Shown here in pieces: positions 4,857 through 52,540 of a stretch of 64,000 nt of DNA. The stretch is from IMG/VR virus record IMGVR_UViG_3300009506_000019, positions 102,062 through 166,061 of that record. The stretch is one strand, 5' to 3'. The position numbers and the translations under genes are program-made. The notes under the pieces were generated by a model, which saw only the letters and a program-made list of their open reading frames with translations, was not told the DNA's origin and searched no databases. How positions within the stretch are numbered: position 1 is the first letter of the stretch; every line of letters begins with the position of its first letter. This DNA is from a virus.

Positions 4857-6944
4857 TTACTCCGTATTGAACGTTCTCAATCTGCAGTCGCCAGCACTAG
4901 TTGGACTCATCTGTCCAAAGAACGAGGTCGCGTCCAATCCATTATGGAATCTATGCCAAAGCTGTACCTTGGTTCCATTTGAACTATCACCAGGATTACC
5001 TACTTGCTCTCCAGCCAATGACCAACCATTAGACCAACCAAGAAGAATGGTATCATTGCGATAATATGCAGAAACTGTAGCCCATAGCTGTTGTTGTTGT
5101 CCATTTATTCCACTAGAAAGTACAACCACATCGCTGCCACTAAAGTATCCACCTCTGTTTACATCAAGCACGTTAACATCAGACAACAACCCGGTGTATT
5201 CCGCAACAAAGAACGCTGCATTGTAGTCACCAGCAGCCAAGTTTACCGTCAACGATGGTGTCACAGTACCATCTACATCATATCCAACCCAATACTCCAT
5301 GGAGCCGTCACGATTTCCAACCCAAGTTACGCCAGTTTGAACTATAGACGTAATAGCACGAATGATGGAAGATCCAGCCAGTATCAGAATGTTTCCTGGG
5401 GTTGGTGTAACACCGAAAGTTATGGGAATGGACGATGATCCACCAGCAATGTGAGAAGCTCCAACCGATTGAACCAACGACACTGGATGTGGTGGATACC
5501 AATCTGAGAAATCTTCAACATCTTTCACTGGAGTTGTTGGGTTGTCTCCAGTTCCGTATTCAAGATAGCTTGGGTCCAAATTCTCTTCGGGATAGATTCT
5601 GTTCTTGGTCCAACCATCTCCTGTAAGATCGTTCCAATAGACAGGTGGTTCTTCAAAGCCTTCCTCTACTGGATCATCTGACATCTTAGCGTAGTCTTTC
5701 CAACCACTCACAAATTCTTCATACGGAAAGACCGATGGTTCAAAATAAGATGGAAAGCCACTGAATTCCAAATTGTCCAATGGAATTTCGGCTACTGGCT
5801 CGAGTTCTTCTTCCAAGGCTGTAGACTCATACTTCTTTTTAACAATTGAGTCTACAATATCTAACTGTGCTGTGAGACTCTTACCAATTATGAACTCCTG
5901 TGGTGGCAGCACATAGGTAAATCTTTTTATGGCTTCTGCGTTTCCATGAATGCCAAGAATTTTCACTGGATACTGACCAACATTCGCTCCACCAGGAACA
6001 TTTTGAATTAACAAGTCCCTCAAAATTGGTGGACGTGATGGTGGCTTAATGAACATATCAGCAGAGTGCTGAGCTTCCGATGTTTTCTTTAGATATGTAT
6101 CTACTGATTGAAATACAGAACTAGCCCCAACCAGCAACGAGTCTGCTGTATGCTGCTTTGTACTGGTTTTTCGAAGCAAAGTGTCTGTGTCATGATCAAT
6201 CTCTGATACGAGCCGCACGAACGAATCAGTTGTGTGATTGTCTTCATATTGAAGAGAACCAGCAAAGGCAGCCATTACGGCCGTGTAATCAGCTGGATTT
6301 CCGACACCAGTTATACAATTCAGACCTTGTTCGTCTGTAATTTTATATGCTAAGTATCCATAGGCATTGCTCTCTATTGGATTTGCGCCAGTATCTTCTT
6401 GTCCCAGCCAGATAAACCCATTGGTTGGAGCAATTATTGGATCATTGTCTCTTTCATTCCATACGAAAAATGCAACCAACAACGAGGGTGGAATAGGCGT
6501 TGCGCCAATAGCAGTTGTGTCGAACGCATTATTAGTATCGCTCTTGGTTGCGGATGTTACAAATACATTAAGGTCATCCGTATTAAGACCACCAACGCTC
6601 ATACCCAGAGACACTATTCTGCTGTTTGCAGTGCCTGGATAGATGTCGATATCAAAATTTTGATTTCCACCAAAACCAGTGTTTTTGCTTGATACCCAAA
6701 CTTGCGTGTGTAATATACCACCACCAGCAACAGACCGAGAATGTTGAAACACTCTCGTCATGGTCATTTGATTGATTAAGGTGTCATGATGTACATCGAT
6801 ACTGGTAATTCCATACGGGACATAATCTTGAATGCCAACACAGATGATTGCTCTTTCACCAGTAGATACACTGAGACCATCCAAATTACTGTGAACAGCA
6901 CTATTATCATGCCTTTTGGCAAAATCGTGATAGGTTATGGTCAT
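4857..6944 (-). CDS. Modular virion protein with two phage beta-sandwich domains and an H-x-x-D heptad linker
   Basis: A 695-residue modular protein. Residues ~1-230 and ~490-695 each look like the same beta-sandwich type: a P-x-x-G-N/S-x-L-x-x strand, an aromatic W-V or W-L-G turn, a segment giving V-A-x-Y-x-G, and a closing strand. The gene at 27277-27957 is a single-domain relative. Residues ~237-300 form a linker in which H-x-x-D-x-x-L units recur (HTTDSFV, HDTDTLL, HTADSLL, HSADMFI), likely a coiled or trimerising stalk. The ATG at 6944 overlaps the previous stop (ATGA). Probably a fibre or tail-tip component. Confidence 0.7.
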   Translation of the reverse strand: MTITYHDFAKRHDNSAVHSNLDGLSVSTGERAIICVGIQDYVPYGITSIDVHHDTLINQMTMTRVFQHSRSVAGGGILHTQVWVSSKNTGFGGNQNFDIDIYPGTANSRIVSLGMSVGGLNTDDLNVFVTSATKSDTNNAFDTTAIGATPIPPSLLVAFFVWNERDNDPIIAPTNGFIWLGQEDTGANPIESNAYGYLAYKITDEQGLNCITGVGNPADYTAVMAAFAGSLQYEDNHTTDSFVRLVSEIDHDTDTLLRKTSTKQHTADSLLVGASSVFQSVDTYLKKTSEAQHSADMFIKPPSRPPILRDLLIQNVPGGANVGQYPVKILGIHGNAEAIKRFTYVLPPQEFIIGKSLTAQLDIVDSIVKKKYESTALEEELEPVAEIPLDNLEFSGFPSYFEPSVFPYEEFVSGWKDYAKMSDDPVEEGFEEPPVYWNDLTGDGWTKNRIYPEENLDPSYLEYGTGDNPTTPVKDVEDFSDWYPPHPVSLVQSVGASHIAGGSSSIPITFGVTPTPGNILILAGSSIIRAITSIVQTGVTWVGNRDGSMEYWVGYDVDGTVTPSLTVNLAAGDYNAAFFVAEYTGLLSDVNVLDVNRGGYFSGSDVVVLSSGINGQQQQLWATVSAYYRNDTILLGWSNGWSLAGEQVGNPGDSSNGTKVQLWHRFHNGLDATSFFGQMSPTSAGDCRLRTFNTE

Positions 6945-7315
6945 GGCAATTCAAAATCCCTGAGCTTTGGAGGATAGAACCATGGATGATCTTCTTTGAA
7001 ATCGCCAGCCGCCTCTATAAATCCATCCTCAAATACATATGACATGGATTGAACGATTTCATCACCAACTTTCATTCTCCATCCAACAATATGACAGGCT
7101 TTTTCTGGTCCTCCTACAGTCTTTTCCACTCTTCTCCTATACACTAATTTGCGTCTTTCGTCTAAGAACAACTTTAAGACGCAATCGCTATCTTTCATCA
7201 ACAAAAAGACTCGCACACGGTCTCTGTCAATGATGTCAGCAGACACAGGGGATCCATCTTCGTTGTATTTTCTCACAACAGTGCCGTCGTCGTATTCAGC
7301 AAGCCACCAGTACAT
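6941..7315 (-). CDS. Small hypothetical virion protein
   Basis: A 124-residue protein with an aromatic start (MYWWLAEY) and a charged core rich in Arg, Asp and Glu, unlike its Gly/Thr-rich neighbours. It overlaps the next gene by 4 bases and starts 1 base after the previous stop, so it belongs to the tail-tip operon. No known domain is recognised. It could be an adaptor or a chaperone for the adjacent fibre proteins. Confidence 0.6.
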   Translation of the reverse strand: MYWWLAEYDDGTVVRKYNEDGSPVSADIIDRDRVRVFLLMKDSDCVLKLFLDERRKLVYRRRVEKTVGGPEKACHIVGWRMKVGDEIVQSMSYVFEDGFIEAAGDFKEDHPWFYPPKLRDFELP

Positions 7316-20640: not shown

Positions 20641-21213
20641 CTACATCTGGGTTGTTGACGAGGATTCCTTTTCGGGAGAGGACGTATCCTTTGATTCGCC
20701 ACCAGGAATCCCCGTCGAGGAATTTTTTAGGCCATCAATCGACTCCTTCCTCTGCCTACTGATTTTTTGATATTCAGCAGCCAGATCGTCGATGACCGGC
20801 ATTCCCAATTCACCCAACCACACATAAAGCTGGTTCATCTGCCAGGTACGTTGACCATACCGAGACATGGTGAATTGTTTCTTTGTGTCCTCGTCCATGC
20901 CATCCGGAAAATCAAATAACTCCTCAACTGGCACGCCATCAATGCTTTTGATAGCCGCAGCCAATCTTGATTTCCTATATGAGGAGATTGCCTGTGGGGT
21001 GGAATCGGTTTGCATGAAACCATCAGCCCACATTTCCTCATCGGAATTGATGGTGGTCATATGAAACTTGTGACCAGCAACCTCAGCAGTTGCCTCAAGC
21101 TCATGACCAGCAAGTTGTTTTTGAATGTCCAACAGCGCCGCATGTCGCTTTGCTATCGGTAGACTGGTAAGAACGATACCCTCGTCCTTCTCTTTCTTCT
21201 CTTCGTTAGCCAT
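20641..21213 (-). CDS. Tail assembly chaperone, upstream (G-type) frame
   Basis: A 190-residue protein from the ATG at 21213 (MANEEKK), with a perfect AAGGAGG 7 bases upstream; the further upstream start at 21228 lacks a site. Acidic N-terminus, central mixed region with 'F-D-F-P-D-G-M' and 'Q-M-N-Q-L-Y-V-W-L-G', and a Ser/Glu-rich tail. Its size, its position between tail tube and tape measure, and a heptameric slip site 27 codons before its stop identify it as the gpG-like partner of the downstream frame. Confidence 0.8.
   Translation of the reverse strand: MANEEKKEKDEGIVLTSLPIAKRHAALLDIQKQLAGHELEATAEVAGHKFHMTTINSDEEMWADGFMQTDSTPQAISSYRKSRLAAAIKSIDGVPVEELFDFPDGMDEDTKKQFTMSRYGQRTWQMNQLYVWLGELGMPVIDDLAAEYQKISRQRKESIDGLKNSSTGIPGGESKDTSSPEKESSSTTQM
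20722..20728 (-). promoter_or_regulatory. Programmed -1 frameshift slippery heptamer A_AAA_AAT
   Basis: On the minus strand the upstream chaperone frame reads CTA-AAA-AAT. The heptamer A_AAA_AAT fits the X_XXY_YYZ rule exactly in phase. After a one-base backward slip, translation continues TTC-CTC-GAC and stays open into the downstream chaperone frame. The downstream frame has a TGA at 20735-20737, so it opens only at the slip site. I did not resolve a pseudoknot; the region 3' of the site is GC-richer and could fold. Confidence 0.75.
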
Positions 21214-21259
21214 TATGGCCTCCTTCAAGTGAAGGGTAAAGTTACATCATACTACAGGC

Positions 21260-34358: not shown

Positions 34359-34765
34359 TACGAACCCTGCGTGTTAAAATCGCGAAGCTCTTTGGCAAAT
34401 TCTCTCACATCCCAGAGTGATCCACCGATTGGTGGTGCCCCAGCATTTGCAAACCGAAGTTGATATTTATCTCTCACAGGCTGTGGGGAAGCTGTTGGTT
34501 CTGGTCCCGGATCAACCAACGAATAACCATAAAGACCAGGAGCGGCAACTGCGCCAATTTCAGACATCGCGAGTGGTGTGGGAACTCCCAAGGTATCAAT
34601 AAAGGCAGCCCCATCGAAAAAGTAACCATCAGACACACGACGTATTTCTACAGTCGGAGACTGAGCGGTCACAGGAGCCCCTGTAGTCTCATTGATGATA
34701 GACAGCAGAATCTCAACAGTTGATTCGTATAGGTGCTTCTTTGTGTCAGCCACTACTTGGAGCAT
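34358..34765 (-). CDS. Small beta protein of the neck cluster
   Basis: A 135-residue protein from the ATG at 34765 (MLQVVADTK), which has an AGGTG site 6 bases upstream inside the end of the previous gene; a GTG at 34774 is the alternative. Sequence features: 'V-E-I-L-L-S-I-I-N-E-T-T-G-A-P-V' and 'P-G-L-Y-G-Y-S-L-V-D', parallel to the beta domains at 26881-27273. It may be a paralogue used at another level of the neck. Confidence 0.6.
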   Translation of the reverse strand: MLQVVADTKKHLYESTVEILLSIINETTGAPVTAQSPTVEIRRVSDGYFFDGAAFIDTLGVPTPLAMSEIGAVAAPGLYGYSLVDPGPEPTASPQPVRDKYQLRFANAGAPPIGGSLWDVREFAKELRDFNTQGS

Positions 34766-35111
34766 CTTGTTCACCTGCCATCTCTGGAGCGCCTAAAATA
34801 GACACGCTTCCAGTCTCAGCGTCAATATCCACCTGCTCTATGGTAACGCCGCATTGTCTCAACTTCGCGTCGAATCTTCCCTTCCAGATCTTCAGGTGAC
34901 CTTCTTGTTTCAACATCTCTCCCTTAGCCACCTTAATCTCGTTCTCGAAATTCTTGATCTTCTCTCCCTCCAGTGCCAACCGAAGCATGATGTTCTGCAA
35001 CTCTATGCGCTCTTGCTGATCGAGTTGCGGAATTTTCACCAGCTTTTTCTCCGGTTTCACTGGTTTTTTGCGGTTTCCCCTTCTTGCTTTCTTCTTGATA
35101 GCTGAGGCCAT
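34746..35111 (-). CDS. Small coiled-coil protein
   Basis: A 121-residue protein with a very basic N-terminus (K/R at 13 of the first 26 residues), a helical coiled-coil centre ('L-D-Q-Q-E-R-I-E-L-Q-N-I-M-L-R-L-A-L') and an acidic, beta-rich end with one Cys. It overlaps its neighbours on both sides (55 and 20 bases). The basic tail could contact DNA or an acidic membrane-protein tail; unknown function. Confidence 0.55.
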   Translation of the reverse strand: MASAIKKKARRGNRKKPVKPEKKLVKIPQLDQQERIELQNIMLRLALEGEKIKNFENEIKVAKGEMLKQEGHLKIWKGRFDAKLRQCGVTIEQVDIDAETGSVSILGAPEMAGEQDAPSSG

Positions 35112-35467
35112 AGCAAAGCTCCTGTGGCTAGCCCTCCTGGTATTGTTACATACCAGGGTAAATACAACACTTCCGTTGAAATAGTCACATTCAGGACTAT
35201 TGTTAGCACCCCTATACCAACCAAGACAAGATGCCTATACGGTACCCATTCTATCCACCGATTGGTACTCTTCCAAAAATGTATCCACCAGTGTCCGAGA
35301 ATGGTAGCTCCAACATATGGAGCAAACCACAATCCATCCAGGGATTCCCAATCACGCATGGCCGCACTGATGCTGTATCCCAAAAGTTCAATCACAACAT
35401 CAAACAAAACAATAGCCACAATGATCGCAATAATGGACCATTTGACTATCTTAATCAGCTTGTCCAT
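35057..35467 (-). CDS. Integral membrane protein, holin-like candidate
   Basis: A 136-residue membrane protein from the ATG at 35467, preceded by GAGGG. Hydrophobic segments lie at ~8-30 ('I-I-A-I-I-V-A-I-V-L-F'), ~45-65, and two more in the C-terminal half ('L-V-L-V-G-I-G-V-L-T-I-V-L' and 'P-G-G-L-A-T-G-A-L-L-W-P'), ending in a basic tail. It lies in a cluster of small membrane proteins within an otherwise structural operon. It could be a holin or antiholin, but no family signature is seen. Confidence 0.6.
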   Translation of the reverse strand: MDKLIKIVKWSIIAIIVAIVLFDVVIELLGYSISAAMRDWESLDGLWFAPYVGATILGHWWIHFWKSTNRWIEWVPYRHLVLVGIGVLTIVLNVTISTEVLYLPWYVTIPGGLATGALLWPQLSRRKQEGETAKNQ

Positions 35468-35612
35468 TTTTGCCCTCATTTATCTTTTCAATGGTAAGAT
35501 CTATGAGTTCTGACAGGTGTTTCTTGTCAGCATCAGAAATGTCTGGGTTGCTTCTGATATTTATGCCGATTCTTTCGACTAGCTTTTTTGCGTCTTCTAA
35601 TGAATTTGCCAT
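35451..35612 (-). CDS. Small helical protein (53 aa)
   Basis: A 53-residue frame from ATG 35612 to TAA 35451, with a GGAGAAG site 6 bases upstream. It fills the space between two membrane-type genes and overlaps the next start. The sequence is a charged helix (M-A-N-S-L-E-D-A-K-K-L-V-E-R, then D-A-D-K-K-H-L-S-E-L). Good start context and tight packing support a real gene; function unknown. Confidence 0.6.
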   Translation of the reverse strand: MANSLEDAKKLVERIGINIRSNPDISDADKKHLSELIDLTIEKINEGKNGQAD

Positions 35613-36382: not shown

Positions 36383-36744
36383 TGACCCTCTTCTTCTTTT
36401 TGACCCCTGCCGTAGTAGGCACCTGCAGCCATATTCACACCCTGAAGACCCAATAGGCCCCACAGAGTATAAAGCATGGAATTTGGAATTGGGTCTGTGA
36501 CCGTAGCCGTTTCTGCCACTGCCTCAGGCTTGACTACCCACAGAATGATCATCACCACGAATAGTACCACACCCATGATGATTGATACCAACTTCTGTAG
36601 CTTCGTCAGCGATACGGCGAGATGCTTTTCGCCTTCAGCGTTGGTCTTGGTCGTCATGATCAAAGCGCCAAGCCACTTCCAAGCCTGGTGTTTGGTGGCA
36701 TCAGCAACTGCTGTCAACTTGCTTTCGGTCTTCTCTTCTGGCAT
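36379..36744 (-). CDS. Two-TM membrane protein, holin-like candidate
   Basis: Starts at ATG 36744 (TGATG overlap) with a strong AGGAGGT site. The 121-residue protein has a soluble N-terminus (~1-50), a membrane helix at ~53-72 ('I-I-M-G-V-V-L-F-V-V-M-I-I-L-W') and a second at ~90-112 ('L-Y-T-L-W-G-L-L-G-L-Q-G-V-N'), then a charged tail. Size and topology match many phage holins, but structural membrane proteins of virions look similar. Confidence 0.55.
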   Translation of the reverse strand: MPEEKTESKLTAVADATKHQAWKWLGALIMTTKTNAEGEKHLAVSLTKLQKLVSIIMGVVLFVVMIILWVVKPEAVAETATVTDPIPNSMLYTLWGLLGLQGVNMAAGAYYGRGQKEEEGQ

Positions 36745-37136
36745 CACGCACCTCCTGGATCGGCTGCAGCCATCTGATACACCGTGACATTCACCGGGTT
36801 TGCGCCATTATTGGTGATCAAGACATCTGATTTTGCAGCAAATGGCTCAAATACTGCCCCTTTTTCTTTGTGCATGCCACGAGTCGGTGGCCTAAACTCT
36901 TCTTGAGGAACTTGAAACACCTTGGTCATACCAGGAGCAGCAATGGCAGCAGCGCCACCATCATTTACTCCGGCAAAACGTGGCTGAGCGCTGACATTGA
37001 TGGTGCCAGCGCCCGCCACGTGTGCCCAGACTTGGTAGTGCCGGTATGGTGTACCGGACTCGAGCGTGGCCGTGGCTGATTCTCCATTGGCAAGTCGAAA
37101 CGTCTTGATGTTGCATAGATACTCAGTCAGGGCCAT
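36744..37136 (-). CDS. Small beta-rich virion protein, possible capsid decoration
   Basis: A 130-residue protein with a GAGGTGAG site. Beta-rich pattern: 'F-R-L-A-N-G-E-S-A-T-A-T-L', 'H-Y-Q-V-W-A-H-V-A-G-A-G-T-I-N-V', 'D-V-L-I-T-N-N-G-A-N-P-V-N-V-T-V-Y'. This resembles small beta-sandwich capsid cement or fibre-head proteins. It follows the PLMP-fused gene with an 8-base gap in the GC-richer capsid block, which suggests an abundant product. Confidence 0.6.
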   Translation of the reverse strand: MALTEYLCNIKTFRLANGESATATLESGTPYRHYQVWAHVAGAGTINVSAQPRFAGVNDGGAAAIAAPGMTKVFQVPQEEFRPPTRGMHKEKGAVFEPFAAKSDVLITNNGANPVNVTVYQMAAADPGGA

Positions 37137-37144
37137 AGCTCACC

Positions 37145-38086
37145 TCATCCTGCTGCTTCAGCAGCTTGTTCTTCGGCCTCTTCCTGCTCTTGGACGAGGC
37201 GTCCCATTTCCATCTTTGCCCACTTCTTCACGGTCTTGTAGTACCCGTGGGCTCGGATGTGCTCGTAGTCATCAATCTTGAGATTCGGAATTTCCTGCAG
37301 AGCTTCGAGAAGATCAGTCGCAGGCATGCGCTGGTTCTCTTCCAACTCCGCCTTCACCTGATTGCAGAGATGGAGTACACGAGGACTGATGACCTCATCC
37401 TCTGACACCAACTCGCTCGGAGCAACGCGCTGACGCTCGCCAAAGCGAGCGGCACCACCAGGGCCTGTTCCCTTTTCGATGACCTCGTGAATGGGCGCTG
37501 GTTTTTCATCGGTGACGTTTTCTCTCAACGTCTTGTCCGATGTGCGACGACGCTTTTCTTCAGCCATGTCGATCGCAGCGTCCACATCAGGATCTCCGTC
37601 TGCCGTCACCATGCCACGAGCCTTTGCTCGTTTGGCGTAGTACGCCTCATACTCCTCTTGAGAGAGAAGGTTGAGAACCGGAGGTCTGCGACTCAGCAAC
37701 TTCCGAAAGTCCATCGAATTCTTGATTGCGATGAACGGAATGTGCTGTGTCAGGTTGATGGGATCCCTGATGGATGGAATGGTGAACCCCTCGACGCGAC
37801 CCTCGCCCATGTTGAACTCGAGCGAAAGTTGAGCATTCGAGATGTTCTGCACGTAAACGTCCCGCTCCTCTCTGAAATACTCTGTGAAGTTTCTGACTGC
37901 CATGTTCTTTCTCCTGATCGAGGCTGCGGACTTTGGATGGAGAAGCTGGATGGCAAACGGGTCTTTGGAGAAGACTCGGGCTTTGCCTTCCTTGATATAC
38001 TTCCGCGCCAGTGCTGGCCTGGCATACTCCAAGAATCGCTTCTCGGAGTCTAACACCATTACTTCTGCGGAAGGCCGCTTCGCCAT
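37145..38086 (-). CDS. PLMP/RRXRR-like domain fused to a virion-type protein
   Basis: A 313-residue frame. Residues ~8-50 match the N-terminal PLMP/RRXRR domain of IscB/IsrB nucleases: an 'V-M-V-L-D' strand, an 'A-L-A-R-K' helix, then 'K-E-G-K-A-R-V' and 'P-F-A-I-Q-L'. The PLMP tetrad itself is replaced (F-L-E-Y). No RuvC 'D-x-G' motif follows; instead the frame runs into a virion-type protein from residue 62 (MAVRNFTEY), which has its own perfect AGGAGA site and could be made alone as 252 residues. The C-terminus is Glu/Ala-rich. In IscB this domain binds the omega RNA, and a structured RNA lies directly upstream here. Confidence 0.7.
   Translation of the reverse strand: MAKRPSAEVMVLDSEKRFLEYARPALARKYIKEGKARVFSKDPFAIQLLHPKSAASIRRKNMAVRNFTEYFREERDVYVQNISNAQLSLEFNMGEGRVEGFTIPSIRDPINLTQHIPFIAIKNSMDFRKLLSRRPPVLNLLSQEEYEAYYAKRAKARGMVTADGDPDVDAAIDMAEEKRRRTSDKTLRENVTDEKPAPIHEVIEKGTGPGGAARFGERQRVAPSELVSEDEVISPRVLHLCNQVKAELEENQRMPATDLLEALQEIPNLKIDDYEHIRAHGYYKTVKKWAKMEMGRLVQEQEEAEEQAAEAAG
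37903..37915 (-). promoter_or_regulatory. Internal ribosome binding site and ATG inside the PLMP-fused gene
   Basis: An AGGAGA at 37910-37915 lies 6 bases before an in-frame ATG (37901-37903), better than the site at the ORF's own start (GAGG 12 bases away). The virion-type domain is therefore probably translated independently of the PLMP-like extension. Confidence 0.6.
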
Positions 38087-38284
38087 ACACAGGCCGTTCC
38101 TCTTTGTTTGTGTCGCCGAAGCAACACGGGTCTTTCACCCACCTTGTCCTGCTCGCCCGGCTTATTCCGGACGAGGAGACAGTTTGTACCACCCCGAAGG
38201 GCAGCCTCTCTGCCGAAGCAGAGGTAAAACCCGGCAGAGCAGCGGTGGAACCACTCTGCCGGGTGTGAACTACCTCAGGCCGTA
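38087..38284 (-). ncRNA. Structured intergenic RNA, omega-RNA/HEARO-like candidate
   Basis: The minus strand between the capsid stop and the PLMP-like gene can fold into at least six hairpins. P1 (38229-38264) is an 11-bp stem. P2 (38208-38223) is CTCTGC-UUCG-GCAGAG. P3 (38189-38204) is a CUGCCC/GGGUGG stem on UUCG. P4 (~38147-38177) has stacked 4-bp stems around AAUAAG. P5 (38128-38140) is GGGU-GAAAG-ACCC. P6 (38110-38127) is a 7-bp stem on UUCG. Three cUUCGg tetraloops in 115 bases are far more than expected. Its position directly 5' of a PLMP-domain start is where IscB loci encode omega RNA. A plain 3'-UTR/terminator array is the alternative. Confidence 0.55.
38221..38264 (-). terminator. 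Rho-independent-type terminator after the major capsid gene (P1)
   Basis: An 11-bp stem (ACCCGGCAGAG / CTCTGCCGGGT) with a 14-nt loop, followed on the minus strand by UUUACC. It begins 20 bases past the capsid stop. The U-tract is short, so termination may be partial and allow transcription of the structured RNA behind it. Confidence 0.55.
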
Positions 38285-39586
38285 CTACTTGTGGCCCTTC
38301 GCAACCGCACGGGCGTTCGGGATACCGAAGCCGATGATCTGACCGAAAGCCCAGCCCTTGACCAGGCGACGGTGCGAGAACATGTTGAACGGCTCGGAGA
38401 ACAGCTCGACGCGGACGCCCATCTCACCGAGGTACTCAGAACCGGTGACCGCATAGAACGTACCCGCAGGCACGACCTCTTCGACACCGGTACCAGCTGC
38501 CGTGATGATCTGAGCATTGAGGATGTTGCCGATGTACCCCGCGAGGATCAACTCACGCTCGGTGACCGGATCCACGTTGGTGGACATCGTTTTGACAACA
38601 TCGGAAAGCTCGGCACGGTTGATGAGGAATTTCTCCACCATCAAGCGGTGACGCTCAACCTGGTAGCGAACGTCCTCGAAAGCCGAGATACCGAGAGTCG
38701 CGAAGATCGTCTCGGCGTTCACGGTGACGGCTGCGCGGTCAAGCAGCGAGAGACCACGCTTGTCCTCTTCCAGCTCGATCTCCTGACGGGCAGTGTCCTG
38801 AGCACGATCGAGGACATCGTAGTTCATCTGGTAGATGTCCTCGATATCCACGGTCGGGAAGGCCGTGACCTTGAACTCGGAAGGCTGGATGAAACGACCA
38901 TAGAGCCGAGACTCGATGGACTGACCATCCTGACCAACCACCCACGCGGTGGAACGAACGTCCTTCGCGATACGGAACAGCTCGCCCTGGGCGAGTGGCC
39001 GTACGCGGTAGACCTTGCGAGCCCACCCCTCGTAGTCGATGATGTCCTTGATCGGGAGCAACAGCTCCTGGCCGACGATGGCGAAGCCTTCACCGGTCGG
39101 ATCTTGCATCGCGGATGCGAGAACCTTGCGGCGATCCTCGGCGGGCATCTGGTTGGACGCCTCACGATAGAAGGTGCCTGGGGACGCCTTCTTCGTGACG
39201 GTGTTCAACAAGTAGGCGATCTGTTGCAACGCGTCCTTGTCATCGTACGCGTTGACCTGACCGGTCTTGTCGAACATGCGCTCCGACAGCTTGGTGTTGC
39301 CGACTGCCTGACGAATGCCGTCGCGGGTCACGTCGCCAGCGTAGGCGGTCGGGTTGAACTGACCGTCTTGGTCCCAGACCTGCTCTTGCTGACGATCAGT
39401 GAAATGTTGGCGGCTGTGTGCGGCCACACGTTCCTGGTCCACCTGATGCTGCTGGACGGCCTGCGGTGTGACCGAGTTGGCCATCATACGCCGCTGCTCT
39501 GGCGTTGGTTGAGCCGGAACCGGGACCTGCGGACGCGCCGCCGCTCCGGCTGCAGCAATACGTCGGTATGGATTCTGCACCTTCAT
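38285..39586 (-). CDS. Major capsid protein (HK97-fold)
   Basis: A 433-residue protein with an A/Q/P-rich N-terminal delta-like region (~1-60), then the capsid body: 'G-R-F-I-Q-P-S-E-F-K-V-T-A-F-P-T-V-D-I', a long E-loop and spine-helix segment, and a C-terminal 'G-V-R-V-E-L-F-S-E-P-F-N-M-F-S-H-R-R-L-V-K-G-W-A-F-G' strand typical of large-phage capsids. Its codon choice is G/C-rich and it has its own AGGAGA site, consistent with the most abundant virion protein. It is flanked by hairpins on both sides. Call based on order (portal, protease-scaffold, decoration, capsid) and sequence style. Confidence 0.8.
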   Translation of the reverse strand: MKVQNPYRRIAAAGAAARPQVPVPAQPTPEQRRMMANSVTPQAVQQHQVDQERVAAHSRQHFTDRQQEQVWDQDGQFNPTAYAGDVTRDGIRQAVGNTKLSERMFDKTGQVNAYDDKDALQQIAYLLNTVTKKASPGTFYREASNQMPAEDRRKVLASAMQDPTGEGFAIVGQELLLPIKDIIDYEGWARKVYRVRPLAQGELFRIAKDVRSTAWVVGQDGQSIESRLYGRFIQPSEFKVTAFPTVDIEDIYQMNYDVLDRAQDTARQEIELEEDKRGLSLLDRAAVTVNAETIFATLGISAFEDVRYQVERHRLMVEKFLINRAELSDVVKTMSTNVDPVTERELILAGYIGNILNAQIITAAGTGVEEVVPAGTFYAVTGSEYLGEMGVRVELFSEPFNMFSHRRLVKGWAFGQIIGFGIPNARAVAKGHK

Positions 39587-39632
39587 TGTTGGAATCTCCT
39601 TGTGAAAAGTCTCAAAGCTCTCAAAGGCAACG

Positions 39633-39662
39633 AGCGGCGAACCCGGTTAAGGGCTCGCCGCT
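39633..39662 (-). terminator. Strong hairpin between decoration-like and major capsid genes
   Basis: A 12-bp stem (AGCGGCGAGCCC / GGGTTCGCCGCT, one G-U pair) on a 6-nt loop, starting 14 bases after the stop at 39676, with an outer GGCAA/TTGCC pairing. The minus-strand run after it is CGTTGCCTTT, without a U-tract. It may work as an mRNA-stabilising or processing hairpin that keeps the capsid message separate, rather than as a full terminator. Confidence 0.5.
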
Positions 39663-39675
39663 GCCGGATTGCCTA

Positions 39676-40461
39676 TCAGGTCACAACGACAGGATCGCCA
39701 CCCATCCGGACACCGAGGAACGGATCGTCGGCAGACGGAACTTGGATGACATGACCCACGAAATCACCCTCACCAGCGTCGTTGGTGAAGAGACCTGCCA
39801 AAGCGGGAGTTGCCCCACCGCAGTACAGGTTCTTTCCAACGCCAGTCATCGTGTACGCACGCGAGGTGTCGTATTGCGATGTGAAGAGGATGGTCGCATC
39901 CGTGATGACTGTGATGCGGCTATCCGCGATGGTCACGTCATCGTTGCGGTTGAAGAAGTTTTGTCCCTGGAACTCGAGGTCCCTGGAACTCAACTCCCAG
40001 GTGTAGGTGACCCACACCGTGGTCGCAACCGGGATGCCGCCAGTGCCCACTTGTGTGACGGTACCGTTCACGGCCGAAACCGTGTAGTCCGTCGTCACCG
40101 TGTAGGCGGTGCCTGCCAGATTCGGCATGTCACGGATCTGGAGGTTGCTGACGTTGGCATGCTTCAGGTTGAACGTTGCATCGGCGGCTGGGAACGAGAT
40201 TGCCTCATCGACCTGAGCGGCCTTCAGAGACAGCGCCTTGTTCCACTTGGCCACGCCAAGAACGGGCTTGCTGACGCACGTGATGATTTCACCAGCATCG
40301 TCTTGTGAAACCAACATCCCTTGTTCAAAACTTGCGGCTTCTGCAGCCTTCCAGATGCCTGTGTCCTGCAGAATGACGCACCGACCGAGGTCCAGCCCAC
40401 GTGGGAAAATGTCCGACTGGAATGATCCCAGACGAGGGCTATCAAGTCCCACTGCACCCAT
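39676..40461 (-). CDS. Capsid decoration or vertex-type protein
   Basis: A 261-residue beta-rich protein with a strong AGGAGG site. N-terminal Gly/Asp/Ser-rich segment, then 'D-A-G-E-I-I-T-C-V', a central 'V-T-T-D-Y-T-V-S-A-V-N-G-T-V' strand and 'Y-T-M-T-G-V-G-K-N-L-Y-C-G'. It lies directly before the capsid gene between a terminator and a hairpin, with the G/C-rich codon use of abundant proteins. Decoration proteins often occupy this place between the scaffold/protease and capsid genes. Confidence 0.6.
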   Translation of the reverse strand: MGAVGLDSPRLGSFQSDIFPRGLDLGRCVILQDTGIWKAAEAASFEQGMLVSQDDAGEIITCVSKPVLGVAKWNKALSLKAAQVDEAISFPAADATFNLKHANVSNLQIRDMPNLAGTAYTVTTDYTVSAVNGTVTQVGTGGIPVATTVWVTYTWELSSRDLEFQGQNFFNRNDDVTIADSRITVITDATILFTSQYDTSRAYTMTGVGKNLYCGGATPALAGLFTNDAGEGDFVGHVIQVPSADDPFLGVRMGGDPVVVT

Positions 40462-40485
40462 TGTTTTTACCTCCTAGTTGCAGTT

Positions 40486-40507
40486 AAAAATGGGGCGGCA
40501 TAGCCCC
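40486..40507 (-). terminator. Rho-independent terminator after the protease-scaffold gene
   Basis: A 5-bp GC stem (GGGGC / GCCCC) with loop TATGCC, followed on the minus strand by ATTTTT. It lies 9 bases past the stop at 40517, upstream of the decoration gene. Confidence 0.6.
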
Positions 40508-40516
40508 CGTTAAAGT

Positions 40517-43207
40517 TCACGCTCCCAAGCTACTGCGGCTTGAAGCAACCTTTGTTGTCCCAACAGCCTTTCGAATCGCATCGCGCTTGTTGTCTCGCGG
40601 CGAGCCGTGGACCGAGGGCTCTGAGTCGCTTGATGTCAGCTGCAGATTGCCTGCCGCAGCTCGTTGACGAAGCTCATCGTTTTCACGAGAAGCAATGCGT
40701 GCAGACGGAACTGGTTGAGTCGGCGGTACGATCGCAATCATGTTCTTGAGGTCTGCTTCGATCTGCATGAGCGACTCATCGCTCATCTTCATCACCTCGC
40801 CGGTTCTCTCAATGAGACCGTCGATGTATGCTTCCCATGCTGGTTTGTCTGTGCCTTCAACCAACGGCTCGTTGATCGAAGCTTCGACCAGATTGACCGC
40901 CAAGGCATCGTCCATCGGCTCGTACTCATATCCACCACCAAGTGGACGTGGATTGAGCAAAGCTTCAGTCATCGCCTCTTTGATCGGAGAATGCTCGAGA
41001 TTCAAAGATTGACGACGAGCGACAATCTTCATGGCCCGCACAAAGCGATCGGTGAAGGTATCGAAGAATTGCTTCTTCTCCTTCTCAATCTCAGCGATCT
41101 TGGCCTCCAACCGCTTGTTATACAGAGCCTCGAGTCGAATAGCATGCTTGCGAGCATCGGCCGTATCGATCTCGGCCTTCTTGTCGTCCTTGTCGTCCTT
41201 CTTCTTGTCCTTCAGGTTCTCTGGGAACTTGCCCTTCGCAGCATGCTTCTCTTTGTGATCGAGCGTGACATCATCGAGCGTGCTCTTGTTCATGTTGAAT
41301 TCCTCACGCTCGTCACGTTGGTCCGTGTCGTGCATCTCGGTGACAGACAGATCGCTCGGATTGCGATCATGCTGCTCGTCTTCGAGATCGGTCTCTCGAC
41401 CTTCGAGAACATCAACACCCTTGTAGTCCTTGGTTTCGTGTCTCTCCTGTGCATCGGTCTCTTCACCGGCACCCGTGGCACTGGCTGGAGCACCAGGACG
41501 TGCCTCTTGAGTGTCTTGATCTGCTTGTTCCACCACGGAATTGGTGTTGATGCGGTCCTTGTTCAACATGTCGTCCATGTAATACTCGAGGACCTGAGCG
41601 AGGCGAGGACCAACGATGGCATTAGTGCGGCGAATGGTCCCACCCATACCGTGCTCGGCAATCATGGTGAGCACATCCTTGGCCAGCTCTTGCTTTTCCT
41701 TGCCAGCAACCTTGCTGTCGTTCGGAACCCTGGAGGGTTTTACGACAAACAACGTACCTTCTTTGTCGAAGATACGAACATTGCCAGCTTCCGTGATTTC
41801 TGCCTGCAGATGCTTGTATGAACCAGCAAAGCGAAGCATCGATGGACCTCCTGAATCTTTGGTTTTTCCGTTATTCGAGCCACGCTTCGGCGGAGGAGCA
41901 ACTCCCATAGCTTCAGGAGTAAGTTGCTGCCCCGGACCTGCAGGCGTGAGGCCCATTTCTTCCGGAGTAAGTTCTTCGATGGGGGTACCAAGAGCTGGAG
42001 CCTCTTCCAAAGGTTCTCCAGACTCGATCTCTACCCCACCACCTTCACCAACATTAATATTGACCGTAACACCAGGTTCCTCTTCACCTGGCATCTCAGG
42101 CGCTCGTGGAGGAACTGCTGGGGCTGCGGGTTCTTCGCCTGGTGCAGCTGGAGGAGGCGGTGCCACCTGCGCAGTCTTCTGGAGGCTGGCAAATTTCTCC
42201 TCGATAGACTGCTCCAGCTGCCTAACCTTCGCCTGAAGCATCAGAATCTCAGACTCATTGCGAAGCTGATCGTCCTTCTCTAGCTGCGCAACCTTGGCAG
42301 AAAGCTGGAGAATCTCATACTGCTCAGCTTTGACATCGGCCGGATCATGCACTCGACTATATTCGTCGAATACCACACCCTCACACCACTCAAATGCCTT
42401 CGCAACTCTTCGTGGTTTTGCGGCCGTTTTGTCTTTGCTGTCGTGACTGATAATAAATGCGATCGGATTGAAATCCGGCTCGCTGTCATCGTATTCTTTA
42501 CCCTTGTTGCGTGCGATGTGGTTGCAGAACTCGCTACGCGTGTAGGCTACCTTGCCGCACACATTGCATCTGGTGCGAATACAGGAGCAACCCATTGATC
42601 CATTCTTGAGAATAGCATTTTTGACGCCATTGGCAAATGCTGGATCTTTTTGAGTATCAATGGCGATGAGCAACTCAACGAATTCGTCTTTGACGACCTC
42701 ACCGCACTTGCGGCAATGAATACCTGTCTCCGGATCGCGGCCGTCTTCTGATGCTGTCTTATTGTGACAATTTGGGCACTCATCAAGAGGCGCTGAAGAA
42801 TCGTTGTAGTGTGCGTCAACGATAAAGCCTCTTGCGTTTTTCGGATTGTCAGCACGATGATTGATGTGATGAGGCTTGTTTTCGTAGGTACGATATACCT
42901 GCTTGCCGAGACGATGATCAAATCTCAACAACTCGTGCTTGTGAAATGCGTCTTTGTTCTCGTTCGGAACATTGGATGTGTTACCACGAATGGCTTCGAA
43001 GATGTAATCGCCTGGATTGGGAGAGATATCATACTCATCAGCCAACATTGCGAGCTTCTCTGCCAAGTCGATGGACTTACGACCACTGAGAAACTCACTT
43101 CGGCTCTCTCCTTCATAGGCGGCTGTGCGTGTGAAAGATTCACCCTCAGTCACCGCAACAGCAAGAGTCTCCACCGAGGCGATTTTCACAAAGCCCTTTT
43201 TCTTCAT
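40517..43207 (-). CDS. Capsid maturation protease fused to a scaffold-type domain
   Basis: An 896-residue protein. Residues ~85-290 match phage prohead proteases of the herpes-protease fold: a His-rich loop (H113/H114/H117), a zinc knuckle C144-x2-C147/C165-x2-C168, 'N-G-S-M-G-C' with Ser204 as the likely nucleophile, another CxxC (C214/C217) with C228/H230, and the 'F-E-W-C-E-G-V-V-F-D-E-Y-S-R-V-H-D-P-A-D' end that such proteases share. A coiled coil follows (~295-345), then a long Pro/Gly/Glu-rich linker and a helical C-terminus typical of scaffolds. ATGA junction with the 43-aa gene. Protease plus scaffold in one chain fits its place before the capsid genes. Confidence 0.75.
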   Translation of the reverse strand: MKKKGFVKIASVETLAVAVTEGESFTRTAAYEGESRSEFLSGRKSIDLAEKLAMLADEYDISPNPGDYIFEAIRGNTSNVPNENKDAFHKHELLRFDHRLGKQVYRTYENKPHHINHRADNPKNARGFIVDAHYNDSSAPLDECPNCHNKTASEDGRDPETGIHCRKCGEVVKDEFVELLIAIDTQKDPAFANGVKNAILKNGSMGCSCIRTRCNVCGKVAYTRSEFCNHIARNKGKEYDDSEPDFNPIAFIISHDSKDKTAAKPRRVAKAFEWCEGVVFDEYSRVHDPADVKAEQYEILQLSAKVAQLEKDDQLRNESEILMLQAKVRQLEQSIEEKFASLQKTAQVAPPPPAAPGEEPAAPAVPPRAPEMPGEEEPGVTVNINVGEGGGVEIESGEPLEEAPALGTPIEELTPEEMGLTPAGPGQQLTPEAMGVAPPPKRGSNNGKTKDSGGPSMLRFAGSYKHLQAEITEAGNVRIFDKEGTLFVVKPSRVPNDSKVAGKEKQELAKDVLTMIAEHGMGGTIRRTNAIVGPRLAQVLEYYMDDMLNKDRINTNSVVEQADQDTQEARPGAPASATGAGEETDAQERHETKDYKGVDVLEGRETDLEDEQHDRNPSDLSVTEMHDTDQRDEREEFNMNKSTLDDVTLDHKEKHAAKGKFPENLKDKKKDDKDDKKAEIDTADARKHAIRLEALYNKRLEAKIAEIEKEKKQFFDTFTDRFVRAMKIVARRQSLNLEHSPIKEAMTEALLNPRPLGGGYEYEPMDDALAVNLVEASINEPLVEGTDKPAWEAYIDGLIERTGEVMKMSDESLMQIEADLKNMIAIVPPTQPVPSARIASRENDELRQRAAAGNLQLTSSDSEPSVHGSPRDNKRDAIRKAVGTTKVASSRSSLGA

Positions 43208-50075: not shown

Positions 50076-52102
50076 CTTCTCATGCCCCCTATACCAGCTT
50101 TAGTAGGGCTGAATAATCTACCCATCTGTCCCATTTGAAATTGCTGGCCACCAATTTCTTCACGCTTCAGACGAGCTTCGCGAGATCGCAATTTAGCACC
50201 AGTAGGCATGATTTGGGAATCCTGACACAAATGGTGAAGATGTACTAATACGACCGCAACGTCGTCAGAATTCCAGCCTCTGCGCTTACCTTTTTGTGGG
50301 TTGTATACTTTTTTGTCGTCAATAGAACGCTCAAGACGTTCCAACTCATAGATACCAACGGCAGCAGGCGATTTGAATGGTGGATCAAGCTCGTCATCTT
50401 CTTGTTCTTTCGGAAGAAGACGAACTCTACCCATCATGCTGTCTGCTACAAAGTTTACAAAATGTTCCGGCTTGATAGACTTCTGTTCAGCCATCACGCC
50501 CGTGTTGCGAATTTGCTGAATAAGTGTAACACTGTTCCAACGGTCAAACTCTACCTTTGCGATCTTTTGACGCTGTTTTTGAGTTTTTATGATATCTACA
50601 CATGCATCAAACCATACTTCCATATCCTCGCTTGGAAGAATACGCATCACCCAATCTACTACGGTGATGTATTCCATTGACAAGTCTTCTAGCTGCTTAA
50701 TCTCAAGATGACCACACGCTCCAGCAAAAGAGTCAAAATTTTGCCCAGCATCAAATACTACAAATCGTGATGCGTCCCTACGTAGGGCACAGTCTGTCAT
50801 CATGGCCTTATGATATCTTTGACCAGTCTTATCAATAAAGGGCATTACCTCTATAACGGCTGTAGGAGCAAGCTCTATATCAATCACTCGCTCTTCAAAT
50901 TTTTCAGGATCAGTGACCAATGGATTTGCAGCTAGAGGAGGCCGTGCGCCAAAATCACGTTCCGTGCCCACAGGATCTTTTTCATACGCCTCGTCGTAAT
51001 ATTCACGCTTCTCTTCAGGATTGAATTCCCAAGTAGCGTAATGAAATGAATACATCTTTTTGATGTTGGTGGACTTATATAAAAGGTCCATACCTTTATC
51101 TTCTACCGAAATTGGAGAAGAGATAGAGGCAATCAAACCTAACCAATTAACGAGCCCATGGTTGTTCACAGCAGATCGTACAGTACGAAGAGAGTTCTCC
51201 ATAACGCGGTAAGCTTCATCAGCACCAAGAGAAGATTCTGTCTGTTTGAAACGACAAAGCTCATCTACGAATGACGCAATACGAGTACGACCGGCGAGAC
51301 CACCAGAGTTAGAGTTCTTTGAATTGAACTTTACATACATATGACCATTTTCAATTTCACGAATGGTCTCTTTATATACCCACTTCTCCATCCCCTCTGG
51401 AGTATCTTGATTTCGTTGTTCTCGTTTCACCCATTTGACATACCTTCTAAACCAGGGTGATTCAATACGAAAGCTCTTATAATAAGCCCAAATCGTATCG
51501 TTTGACTGTACTTCCGTGGACGCAATAAAAGTTACTTCGAATGGCTGCTTCGGCAAAACACCAAAATAATTAGCAAGTTTACATCCTGGTTGATTCAACG
51601 CGATATTAATAAGGCGATGTTCTACGTACGCTCCAATCATGCCAACAGTCGCGGTCTTTCCTGACCGCATGCCAACAATACCATGCAACTGATTGTAGCG
51701 TGCTAGCAAACCATCTTGTAAAAATTCTGTTCTGGTTGTTCCACACTTTGGGCAAATATCATCATTGTACTTTGGCGACCATACAAGAAGATTTTCTGAT
51801 TCTAGATATTCTCTGCCTTTATCCCAACAGTCGATAGCATCTGGACTTATTGGGTTACAGATCGGACAGCGATACTGAAACAAATCCCTCAGCACCTGAT
51901 ACTGCCGCTTGTGTTTGAAAACAGACGGAATATTCAGGTACTGAGGGGAGTGAACAAATTCAATAATGTTTGGGGCAGGAATAGCCAGATAATCTTTTTC
52001 GGGGTCGTGTTTCTCCTGCTGTTGATCAATAAGTACAGAAGATACTATGGCCCCTATAGAAGATTTGATGTCCGCTGATCCGCCTCCGTCAAACACACTC
52101 AA
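50069..52102 (-). CDS. terL: Terminase large subunit with zinc ribbon
   Basis: A 677-residue protein. Walker A 'G-M-R-S-G-K-T' at 144-150, Walker B-like 'I-A-S-F-V-D-E' ending at D280-E281, and an RNase-H-like nuclease domain with 'V-V-F-D-A-G' (D451), 'V-E-F-D-R-W-N-S' (D520) and 'W-N-S-D-D-V-A' (D613/D614). A CPIC...CPKC zinc ribbon (C79, C82, C117, C120) lies before the ATPase, as in some large-phage terminases. ATGA overlap with the preceding gene. Packages concatemeric DNA through the portal encoded two genes on. Confidence 0.9.
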   Translation of the reverse strand: MSVFDGGGSADIKSSIGAIVSSVLIDQQQEKHDPEKDYLAIPAPNIIEFVHSPQYLNIPSVFKHKRQYQVLRDLFQYRCPICNPISPDAIDCWDKGREYLESENLLVWSPKYNDDICPKCGTTRTEFLQDGLLARYNQLHGIVGMRSGKTATVGMIGAYVEHRLINIALNQPGCKLANYFGVLPKQPFEVTFIASTEVQSNDTIWAYYKSFRIESPWFRRYVKWVKREQRNQDTPEGMEKWVYKETIREIENGHMYVKFNSKNSNSGGLAGRTRIASFVDELCRFKQTESSLGADEAYRVMENSLRTVRSAVNNHGLVNWLGLIASISSPISVEDKGMDLLYKSTNIKKMYSFHYATWEFNPEEKREYYDEAYEKDPVGTERDFGARPPLAANPLVTDPEKFEERVIDIELAPTAVIEVMPFIDKTGQRYHKAMMTDCALRRDASRFVVFDAGQNFDSFAGACGHLEIKQLEDLSMEYITVVDWVMRILPSEDMEVWFDACVDIIKTQKQRQKIAKVEFDRWNSVTLIQQIRNTGVMAEQKSIKPEHFVNFVADSMMGRVRLLPKEQEDDELDPPFKSPAAVGIYELERLERSIDDKKVYNPQKGKRRGWNSDDVAVVLVHLHHLCQDSQIMPTGAKLRSREARLKREEIGGQQFQMGQMGRLFSPTKAGIGGMRRW

Positions 52103-52488
52103 CCTTGTACTGCCCTTGCTACTCCAGGTGCCATTGCGTTCGCCAACCCAGGAGGCACCGAAGAAGCTGCAGAAATGCCAGAACGAGCGGCTCTGATTTG
52201 AGTCCAGAACTTCTCGTGCGTGTTCACCAATTGAGGATCGACAACCCTATGTCTGCCAATCCATTGAAACTCCCATGTGTCTATGGTAAACGTGTGCATG
52301 ATTGGAGCAAGATTCAGCATGATTTGTTGTTGCTCTTGGGTTTGAGTGGGCAGCACACGCTCTTGAATGGTCAATACCTTTTTCAATACGACAGTGCGAT
52401 TTTCGACTGACTCCTCTTGTACAATACCAAGATAGAAGCGTCCACCTCTGTCCTGGTACATGTACAAATCCTTCTTCTCCTCTGACAT
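52099..52488 (-). CDS. Small beta-rich protein upstream of the terminase
   Basis: A 129-residue protein preceded by TAGGAGAG. A beta-rich N-terminus ('M-Y-Q-D-R-G-G-R-F-Y-L-G-I-V-Q-E') is followed by a helical, Ala/Gly-rich tail ('S-G-I-S-A-A-S-S-V-P-P-G-L-A-N'). Coupled to terL by a 4-base overlap. It could be a packaging accessory or small terminase; the family is not recognised. Confidence 0.55.
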   Translation of the reverse strand: MSEEKKDLYMYQDRGGRFYLGIVQEESVENRTVVLKKVLTIQERVLPTQTQEQQQIMLNLAPIMHTFTIDTWEFQWIGRHRVVDPQLVNTHEKFWTQIRAARSGISAASSVPPGLANAMAPGVARAVQG

Positions 52489-52502: not shown

Positions 52503-52533
52503 CCCGCGAAATGCGGGACTCCCCAAATGGGGG
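52503..52533 (-). other. Tandem hairpins between two packaging genes
   Basis: Two perfect small hairpins on the minus strand, CCCC-ATTT-GGGG (~52521-52532) and CCCGC-ATTTC-GCGGG (52503-52517), lie between the stop at 52541 and the ribosome site of the 129-aa gene. No U-run follows. They may insulate or stabilise the downstream message. Confidence 0.35.
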
Positions 52534-52540
52534 TAAGTTA

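Follow-up and report, generated by a model that had tools for sequence, protein, structure and literature searches.

The stretch of DNA analysed here (the window) comprises 64,000 nucleotides (nt) of a 166-kilobase (kb) virus record, IMGVR_UViG_3300009506_000019 (G000:C1:102062-166061). On its minus strand the gene directly 3' of the major capsid gene, separated from it by a 198-nt spacer, encodes a protein of 313 amino acids (aa) which begins with the PLMP domain known from IscB and IsrB, and the spacer itself encodes a structured leader RNA. The coordinates given for this gene in an earlier note on the same DNA (open reading frame (ORF) 37145-38086 on the minus strand, ATG at 38086, capsid stop at 38285) were found to be correct. 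No sigma-70 promoter-like site was detected on the minus strand in 36500-40600 by the promoter scan. The features of the locus are given below, the long form being the predicted product of the first start and the short form that of the second.

38285-39586, minus strand: major capsid gene (phrog_2522, E 4e-57), stop at 38285
38087-38284, minus strand: structured leader RNA filling the spacer from the capsid stop to the PLMP start (fold z -5.67 and covariation)
38099-38102, minus strand: candidate Shine-Dalgarno GAGG of the long form, 12 nt 5' of the ATG at 38086
37145-38086, minus strand: PLMP-fusion gene, 313 aa, ATG at 38086 (ORF call, about 30 conserved loci, no nuclease domain)
37919-38062, minus strand: PLMP (RRXRR N-terminal) domain, residues 9-56, strand-strand-helix-strand-strand (Pfam, hhalign, AlphaFold2 with Foldseek)
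37911-37915, minus strand: putative internal Shine-Dalgarno AGGAG, encoding I-R-R-K-N, 7 nt before the ATG at 37903 (sequence and relatives)
37145-37903, minus strand: C-terminal part from the internal ATG (Met62), 252 aa, virion-neighbourhood protein (internal ATG, L016 homologue, Foldseek, phrog_17686)

A conserved PLMP fusion without nuclease domains

Residues 9-56 are the PLMP domain of IscB/IsrB by three methods. The Pfam RRXRR profile matched them with an E value of 9.7e-8 (32.5 bits, cut-off 25) over profile positions 1-48 of 174; the match ends at position 48 and leaves the RuvC part uncovered. A profile built from 15 phage PLMP domains was aligned by hhalign to IscB over 48 columns (probability 98.2%, identity 38%). 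The AlphaFold2 model (mean predicted local distance difference test score 82) has the strand-strand-helix-strand-strand order at residues 9-48, and in the Foldseek comparison with the PDB ranks 1-9 were all IscB/IsrB chains, the N-domains of IF3 coming next, among weak hits. The likeness of PLMP to the IF3 N-domain has been reported by the IsrB authors (PMC9581776). The IscB-type (RRXRR) N-terminus and the lack of RuvC and HNH described in the earlier note are both borne out, as Pfam-type family scans gave no match to RuvC, HNH or any other nuclease family in the 313-aa protein or its relatives. The literal PLMP tetrapeptide is absent, FLEY standing in the window protein and LLPT, VSPC or LSYT in relatives; a near-literal motif is present in some of them (L060, GKPVSPCSPARAR; L023, FLLPTTPAKAR). 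Two tandem PLMP-like units were seen by eye at the N-terminus of the fusion in L061:3785-5026, L062:3761-5005 and L073.

The relatives were gathered by scans with the capsid and with the fusion-protein alignment; single-protein scans of viral contigs recovered few or none. The fusion is kept in about 30 divergent phage loci, many of them directly 3' of the capsid gene and with capsid identity down to 52%, and 24 of 30 relatives carry an RRXRR match at E<=0.01 (Pfam). In six pairs the PLMP part had a ratio of nonsynonymous to synonymous substitution rates (dN/dS) of about 0.06-0.31, the remainder of the gene being similarly low, and the fusion is under purifying selection. The proposal of a phage-domesticated, nuclease-free PLMP fused to a gene directly after the capsid is supported. 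In one relative (L001; KX853510.1, Virus Rctr197k, 5992-7131) the only annotation of the fusion gene is a misc_feature reading 'similar to hypothetical protein'.

In nearly all relatives an in-frame ATG with a preceding Shine-Dalgarno lies at the domain junction, as in AGGAGAAAGAAC-ATG in the window (Met62) and CCAGGGAGGACAAA-ATG in L069. The junction start is not clear in L026, L029, L031 and L066, another codon was picked by the scan in L004, and in many cases the first start is a weak codon such as GTG or TTG. From this conserved second start with its own Shine-Dalgarno, we infer that one gene would yield two products, a long form with PLMP and a short form. The C-terminal part was matched by Foldseek to uncharacterised proteins of 203-246 aa from PaBG, Motura and others, and phrog_17686 was matched in 12 of 29 family members. 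The post-capsid genes of PaBG and Yoloswag were also considered as its sequence relatives, and the comparison showed no sequence relationship. In L016 the C-terminal part occurs alone, its start MTQAINFTEYF corresponding to the internal start of the window gene, and PLMP and hairpin are both absent.

A structured leader with omega-RNA-type terminal hairpins

The leader of the window contains the following hairpins, R1 being a covariance model of IscB hairpins described below.

38229-38264, minus strand: first hairpin, 15 base pairs (bp), terminator-like, CCACC in the loop (38248-38244) (fold, relatives)
38204-38227, minus strand: terminal hairpin 1, of omega-RNA type by its motif, TTAC-[CTCTGC TTCG GCAGAG]-AGGC (R1 match 14.3 bits, E 0.53)
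38188-38205, minus strand: tandem hairpin 2, GCTGCCC TTCG GGGTGGT (fold, tandem-hairpin count)
38145-38181, minus strand: long hairpin TGTCTCC..GGACA, class-1 leaders only (7/9 pairs with double changes)
38128-38140, minus strand: hairpin GGGTGAAAGACCC (no variation among leaders)
38110-38127, minus strand: hairpin GTGTTGCTTCGGCGACAC (double changes in 7/7 pairs)

The 198-nt leader folds at -99 kcal/mol (z = -5.67; 0 of 200 shuffles equal or better), with at least six hairpins of which three have UUCG loops, as had been read from its letters in the earlier note. In nine homologous class-1 leaders (the class of the window), 93.5% of the cells of 40 pairs do pair, and both-sided, compensatory changes fall in 29 of the 40, so that the covariation looked for is present. 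Double-change cells numbered 72 against 25.0 +/- 4.4 in shuffles, a control which ignores the relatedness of the leaders. Sliding the partners lowered the pairing score from 0.61 to 0.09-0.15, a control which leans in favour of the structure because the consensus was derived from the same alignment.

In L007, L011 and L012, where the capsid gene is followed by an inserted gene, the leader remains with the PLMP gene. The same RNA-gene pair recurs in related phages. The first hairpin resembles a capsid terminator, yet it was not listed by the terminator scan and it travels with the leader and not with the capsid gene, being present after the inserted gene in L007 and L011. By its compensatory changes, the upstream structured RNA is real and conserved. 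No further PLMP gene able to use the leader RNA was found in the window's own virus record. In class-1 leaders the loop segment CCACC (38248-38244) is complementary to GGTGG (38143-38139), which suggests a possible pseudoknot; in L012 the loop segment is missing and the second segment is only partly kept.

The earlier note had called this RNA omega-RNA-like. The Rfam HEARO (RF02033) covariance model gave no match in the window, its own genome or the relatives (searches at E<=5 / E<=10); among positive controls, five of seven iscB loci matched it at 96-129 bits. Inspection by eye recognised no guide-like segment or mobile-element end near the leader. A weak RAGATH-10 match to the opposite strand, at 15.9 bits against a cut-off of 41.2, was judged to be chance, and a resemblance of GAGGAACGG to the 3' end of OgeuIscB omega RNA was discarded as Shine-Dalgarno-like.

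The likeness was located when the sequence from the HEARO end to the iscB start was read in 160 IscB loci. Many of these have UUACC-hairpin-GAG in this interval, often followed by a second hairpin, and the same AC-[C..G hairpin]-AG-[hairpin] element is present in the PLMP-phage leaders. In its strict form, T[TA]AC-[C..G, at least 4 bp]-AG, the motif occurred 16 times in 31 leaders (5 kb) against three times in the remaining 531 kb of these loci, and its relaxed form, with a looser prefix, was present in 27 of the 31. The AC dinucleotide 5' of the hairpin-AG was found in 40/50 IscB cases and 28/43 leaders (background 4.7%), and a tandem second hairpin in 34/60 (5.4 expected) and 21/28 (5.6 expected), respectively.

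To counter the post hoc definition of the motif, R1 was trained on IscB sequences alone, with 29 hairpins. When it was run on 13 phage loci (95.8 kb), leaders made up the six best matches and 11 of all 20 (best L072, E 0.0019); in ten other loci (93 kb) leaders took ranks 1 and 2 and five of 14 matches. In the window the leader ranked third (E 0.53), behind two other gene starts. As single R1 matches are weak, the case rests on the set of leaders. By these comparisons the leader shares only the 3'-terminal tandem hairpins with omega RNA and not the whole of it; the omega-RNA-like description therefore stands for the terminal hairpins and fails for the full model.

The position of the hairpins varies among the phages. 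In distant relatives (L001, L025, L028, L031, L032 and L066) the hairpin AG lies 6-12 nt 5' of the start, which is the IscB layout. In class 2 (L053, L057, L063, L069, L070 and L074) a second hairpin stands between, giving an AG-start distance of 35-39 nt. In the class of the window, further covarying hairpins push the distance above 100 nt (102-122 nt in seven class-1 relatives).

In many iscB loci (L101, L114, L118, L125, L163 and others), the last 40 nt before iscB show the second terminal hairpin holding the iscB start codon, and the first abutting the Shine-Dalgarno. This arrangement possibly constitutes a built-in translational switch within IscB itself.

A proposed translational switch and its alternatives

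In IsrB, the PLMP domain contacts the tandem hairpins SL7/SL8 near the 3' end of the omega RNA, the isrB Shine-Dalgarno sits in the terminal hairpin, and the authors suggested that IsrB might thereby govern its expression (PMC9581776). In IscB, the PLMP domain recognises the terminal hairpins (PMC9640706). By analogy, the likeliest reading, held with moderate confidence, is that the nuclease-free PLMP and the tandem hairpins form an autogenous translational switch. The long form would bind the tandem hairpins in the leader of its own mRNA as the PLMP of IscB/IsrB does, and its translation would be lowered once enough protein is present. Translation of the short form would begin at Met62, behind a separate Shine-Dalgarno and independently of the long form, and would supply the assembly protein. 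This reading builds on the observed domain homology, RNA conservation, shared hairpin motif, conserved second start and selection, and the joint absence of PLMP and hairpin in L016 is consistent with it as a negative control for the module.

The same hairpins were also found before two other late genes of the window, and the long form may therefore act on these in trans.

52509-52536, minus strand: hairpin TTAC-[CCCC..GGGG]-AG with a second hairpin, before the 129-aa gene (52099-52488) beside the terminase gene; in 5/6 homologues
21218-21239, minus strand: hairpin of the same type before the 190-aa gene (20641-21213); in 5/10 homologues

The stems of both hairpins differ between relatives. AC preceded 15 of the 76 gene-leader hairpin-AGs found in eight PLMP phages, and none of the 10 found in the control sets, which were four in number (G014, T4, phiKZ and a Nodularia phage). 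Together these counts are suggestive of a small late-gene regulon sharing the hairpin. A genome-wide motif scan without an intergenic filter was diluted by chance hairpins. One further strict hairpin (35132-35161, minus strand) lies inside the end of ORF 35057-35479, 21 nt before ORF 34746-35111; it has a counterpart in G004, and the conservation may be that of the coding sequence.

Several points weigh against the autogenous switch. Binding and regulation are put forward on analogy, and L016 is the sole PLMP-less relative usable as a negative control. The hairpins of the window's class lie more than 100 nt 5' of the start, so that repression would depend on how the entire leader folds and not on direct occlusion of the Shine-Dalgarno. 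Moreover, any Shine-Dalgarno favours hairpins ending in AGG, the two best R1 matches in the window are other gene starts, and four of the 31 leaders lack the motif by the criteria used. The motif was also defined after both sets had been inspected, a bias that R1 removes only partly.

A wider reading, which we hold tentatively, is that PLMP and its tandem hairpins make up an independent, mobile module of RNA-based regulation which predates RNA-guided cutting or can be separated from it. In these phages it would act in trans as a translation regulator of a late-gene regulon, and in IscB it would already control iscB expression, the iscB start codon and Shine-Dalgarno being held in or beside the two hairpins. 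Somewhat less likely, the PLMP form may chiefly regulate several late mRNAs with AC-hairpin-AG leaders in trans, its own leader being merely one target; the IF3-like fold might in addition favour phage mRNAs at the ribosome. The differing stems before the 129-aa and 190-aa genes, the AC-preceded hairpins of the PLMP phages and the place of the IF3 N-domain next after IscB in Foldseek all agree with such a regulator. On the other hand, the controls are few, the enrichment is uneven among genomes (low in G011 and G012), and some sites coincide with Shine-Dalgarnos and are perhaps conserved for that alone.

It is unlikely that the hairpin is shared by convergence, as a Shine-Dalgarno hairpin common to late genes in general, and that PLMP in the fusion binds something else, such as a protein, as it does RuvC in IscB. 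The AGG of the motif is indeed Shine-Dalgarno-like, and the PLMP of IsrB also contacts RuvC/TI (PMC9581776). However, class-1 and most class-2 hairpins lie 28-122 nt from the start and are not its Shine-Dalgarno, and convergence leaves unexplained the AC prefix and the tandem second hairpin, while the whole leader covaries.

The notion raised in the earlier note that an RNA is packaged has found no support so far and is considered very unlikely. Here the leader RNA, or else the mRNA, would be brought by the PLMP form into heads during assembly, where it could time the assembly or be injected, for instance. This would suit a gene beside the capsid whose virion-neighbourhood protein is fused to a domain of RNA-binding type. 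Neither a separate RNA nor a role in packaging showed any sign, the second start would yield a form without PLMP, and the hairpins precede unrelated late genes too.

Least probable is the suggestion of the same note that the locus is the relic of an IscB insertion. An IscB/IshB-type element would have entered a post-capsid hot spot and decayed, leaving a functionless PLMP and hairpins. Homing-endonuclease-like ORFs do lie directly after the capsid gene in L003, L012, L013, L018, L022 and L028, and the post-capsid position is a recurrent insertion hot spot. A simple relic is nevertheless improbable because the frame (intact in about 30 loci down to 52% capsid identity), the PLMP residues (under selection about equal to that on the rest) and the RNA pairing are all maintained. 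Since those ORFs occupy the same place, it is plausible that PLMP was captured from an inserted IscB-like element, 50 residues carrying little signal on descent. The post-capsid gene of phage G (gp28, L315:4467-5399) is endonuclease-like as judged by eye only.

Relation to known systems

The autogenous switch proposed here resembles several known systems in part. With IscB and its omega RNA (HEARO; OgeuIscB) it shares a homologous PLMP and AC-hairpin-AG-hairpin terminal hairpins directly 5' of the PLMP start, whereas the phage protein lacks RuvC, the bridge helix, HNH and WED/TI, carries PLMP fused to a 252-aa part and has an internal second start; guide, adaptor and nexus RNA were not recognised in the phage leader. 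IsrB is a nickase of PLMP and RuvC whose PLMP contacts the 3' hairpins and the Shine-Dalgarno, and in the nuclease-free phage module regulation may be the entire function. Autogenous repressors of the T4 gp32 (PMC535899) or ribosomal-protein type likewise bind their own structured leaders, as is proposed here, but the phage module uses a different RNA-binding domain and RNA together with a nested second start. TldR, the nuclease-dead TnpB repressors of phages, are also an OMEGA component domesticated by phages for regulation (PMC13418256); these are RNA-guided and act on transcription, whereas the phage PLMP module has no guide or RuvC fold. The N-terminal domain of IF3 is similar to PLMP in fold (Foldseek; PMC9581776), and no sign of an initiation function was seen for the phage protein.

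No report of a nuclease-free PLMP-hairpin pair was found in the literature searched. IscB lies within the ancestry of Cas9; its PLMP domain, which is lost in Cas9, is little understood. A group of large uncultivated phages has kept the known PLMP of IscB and its terminal hairpins without the nuclease, fused to a capsid-adjacent gene product, probably as a switch for late proteins. Such a natural pair would offer a minimal system for the targets of PLMP and for the control of self-translation in OMEGA systems, and it is probably a part of OMEGA turned into an element of phage gene control.
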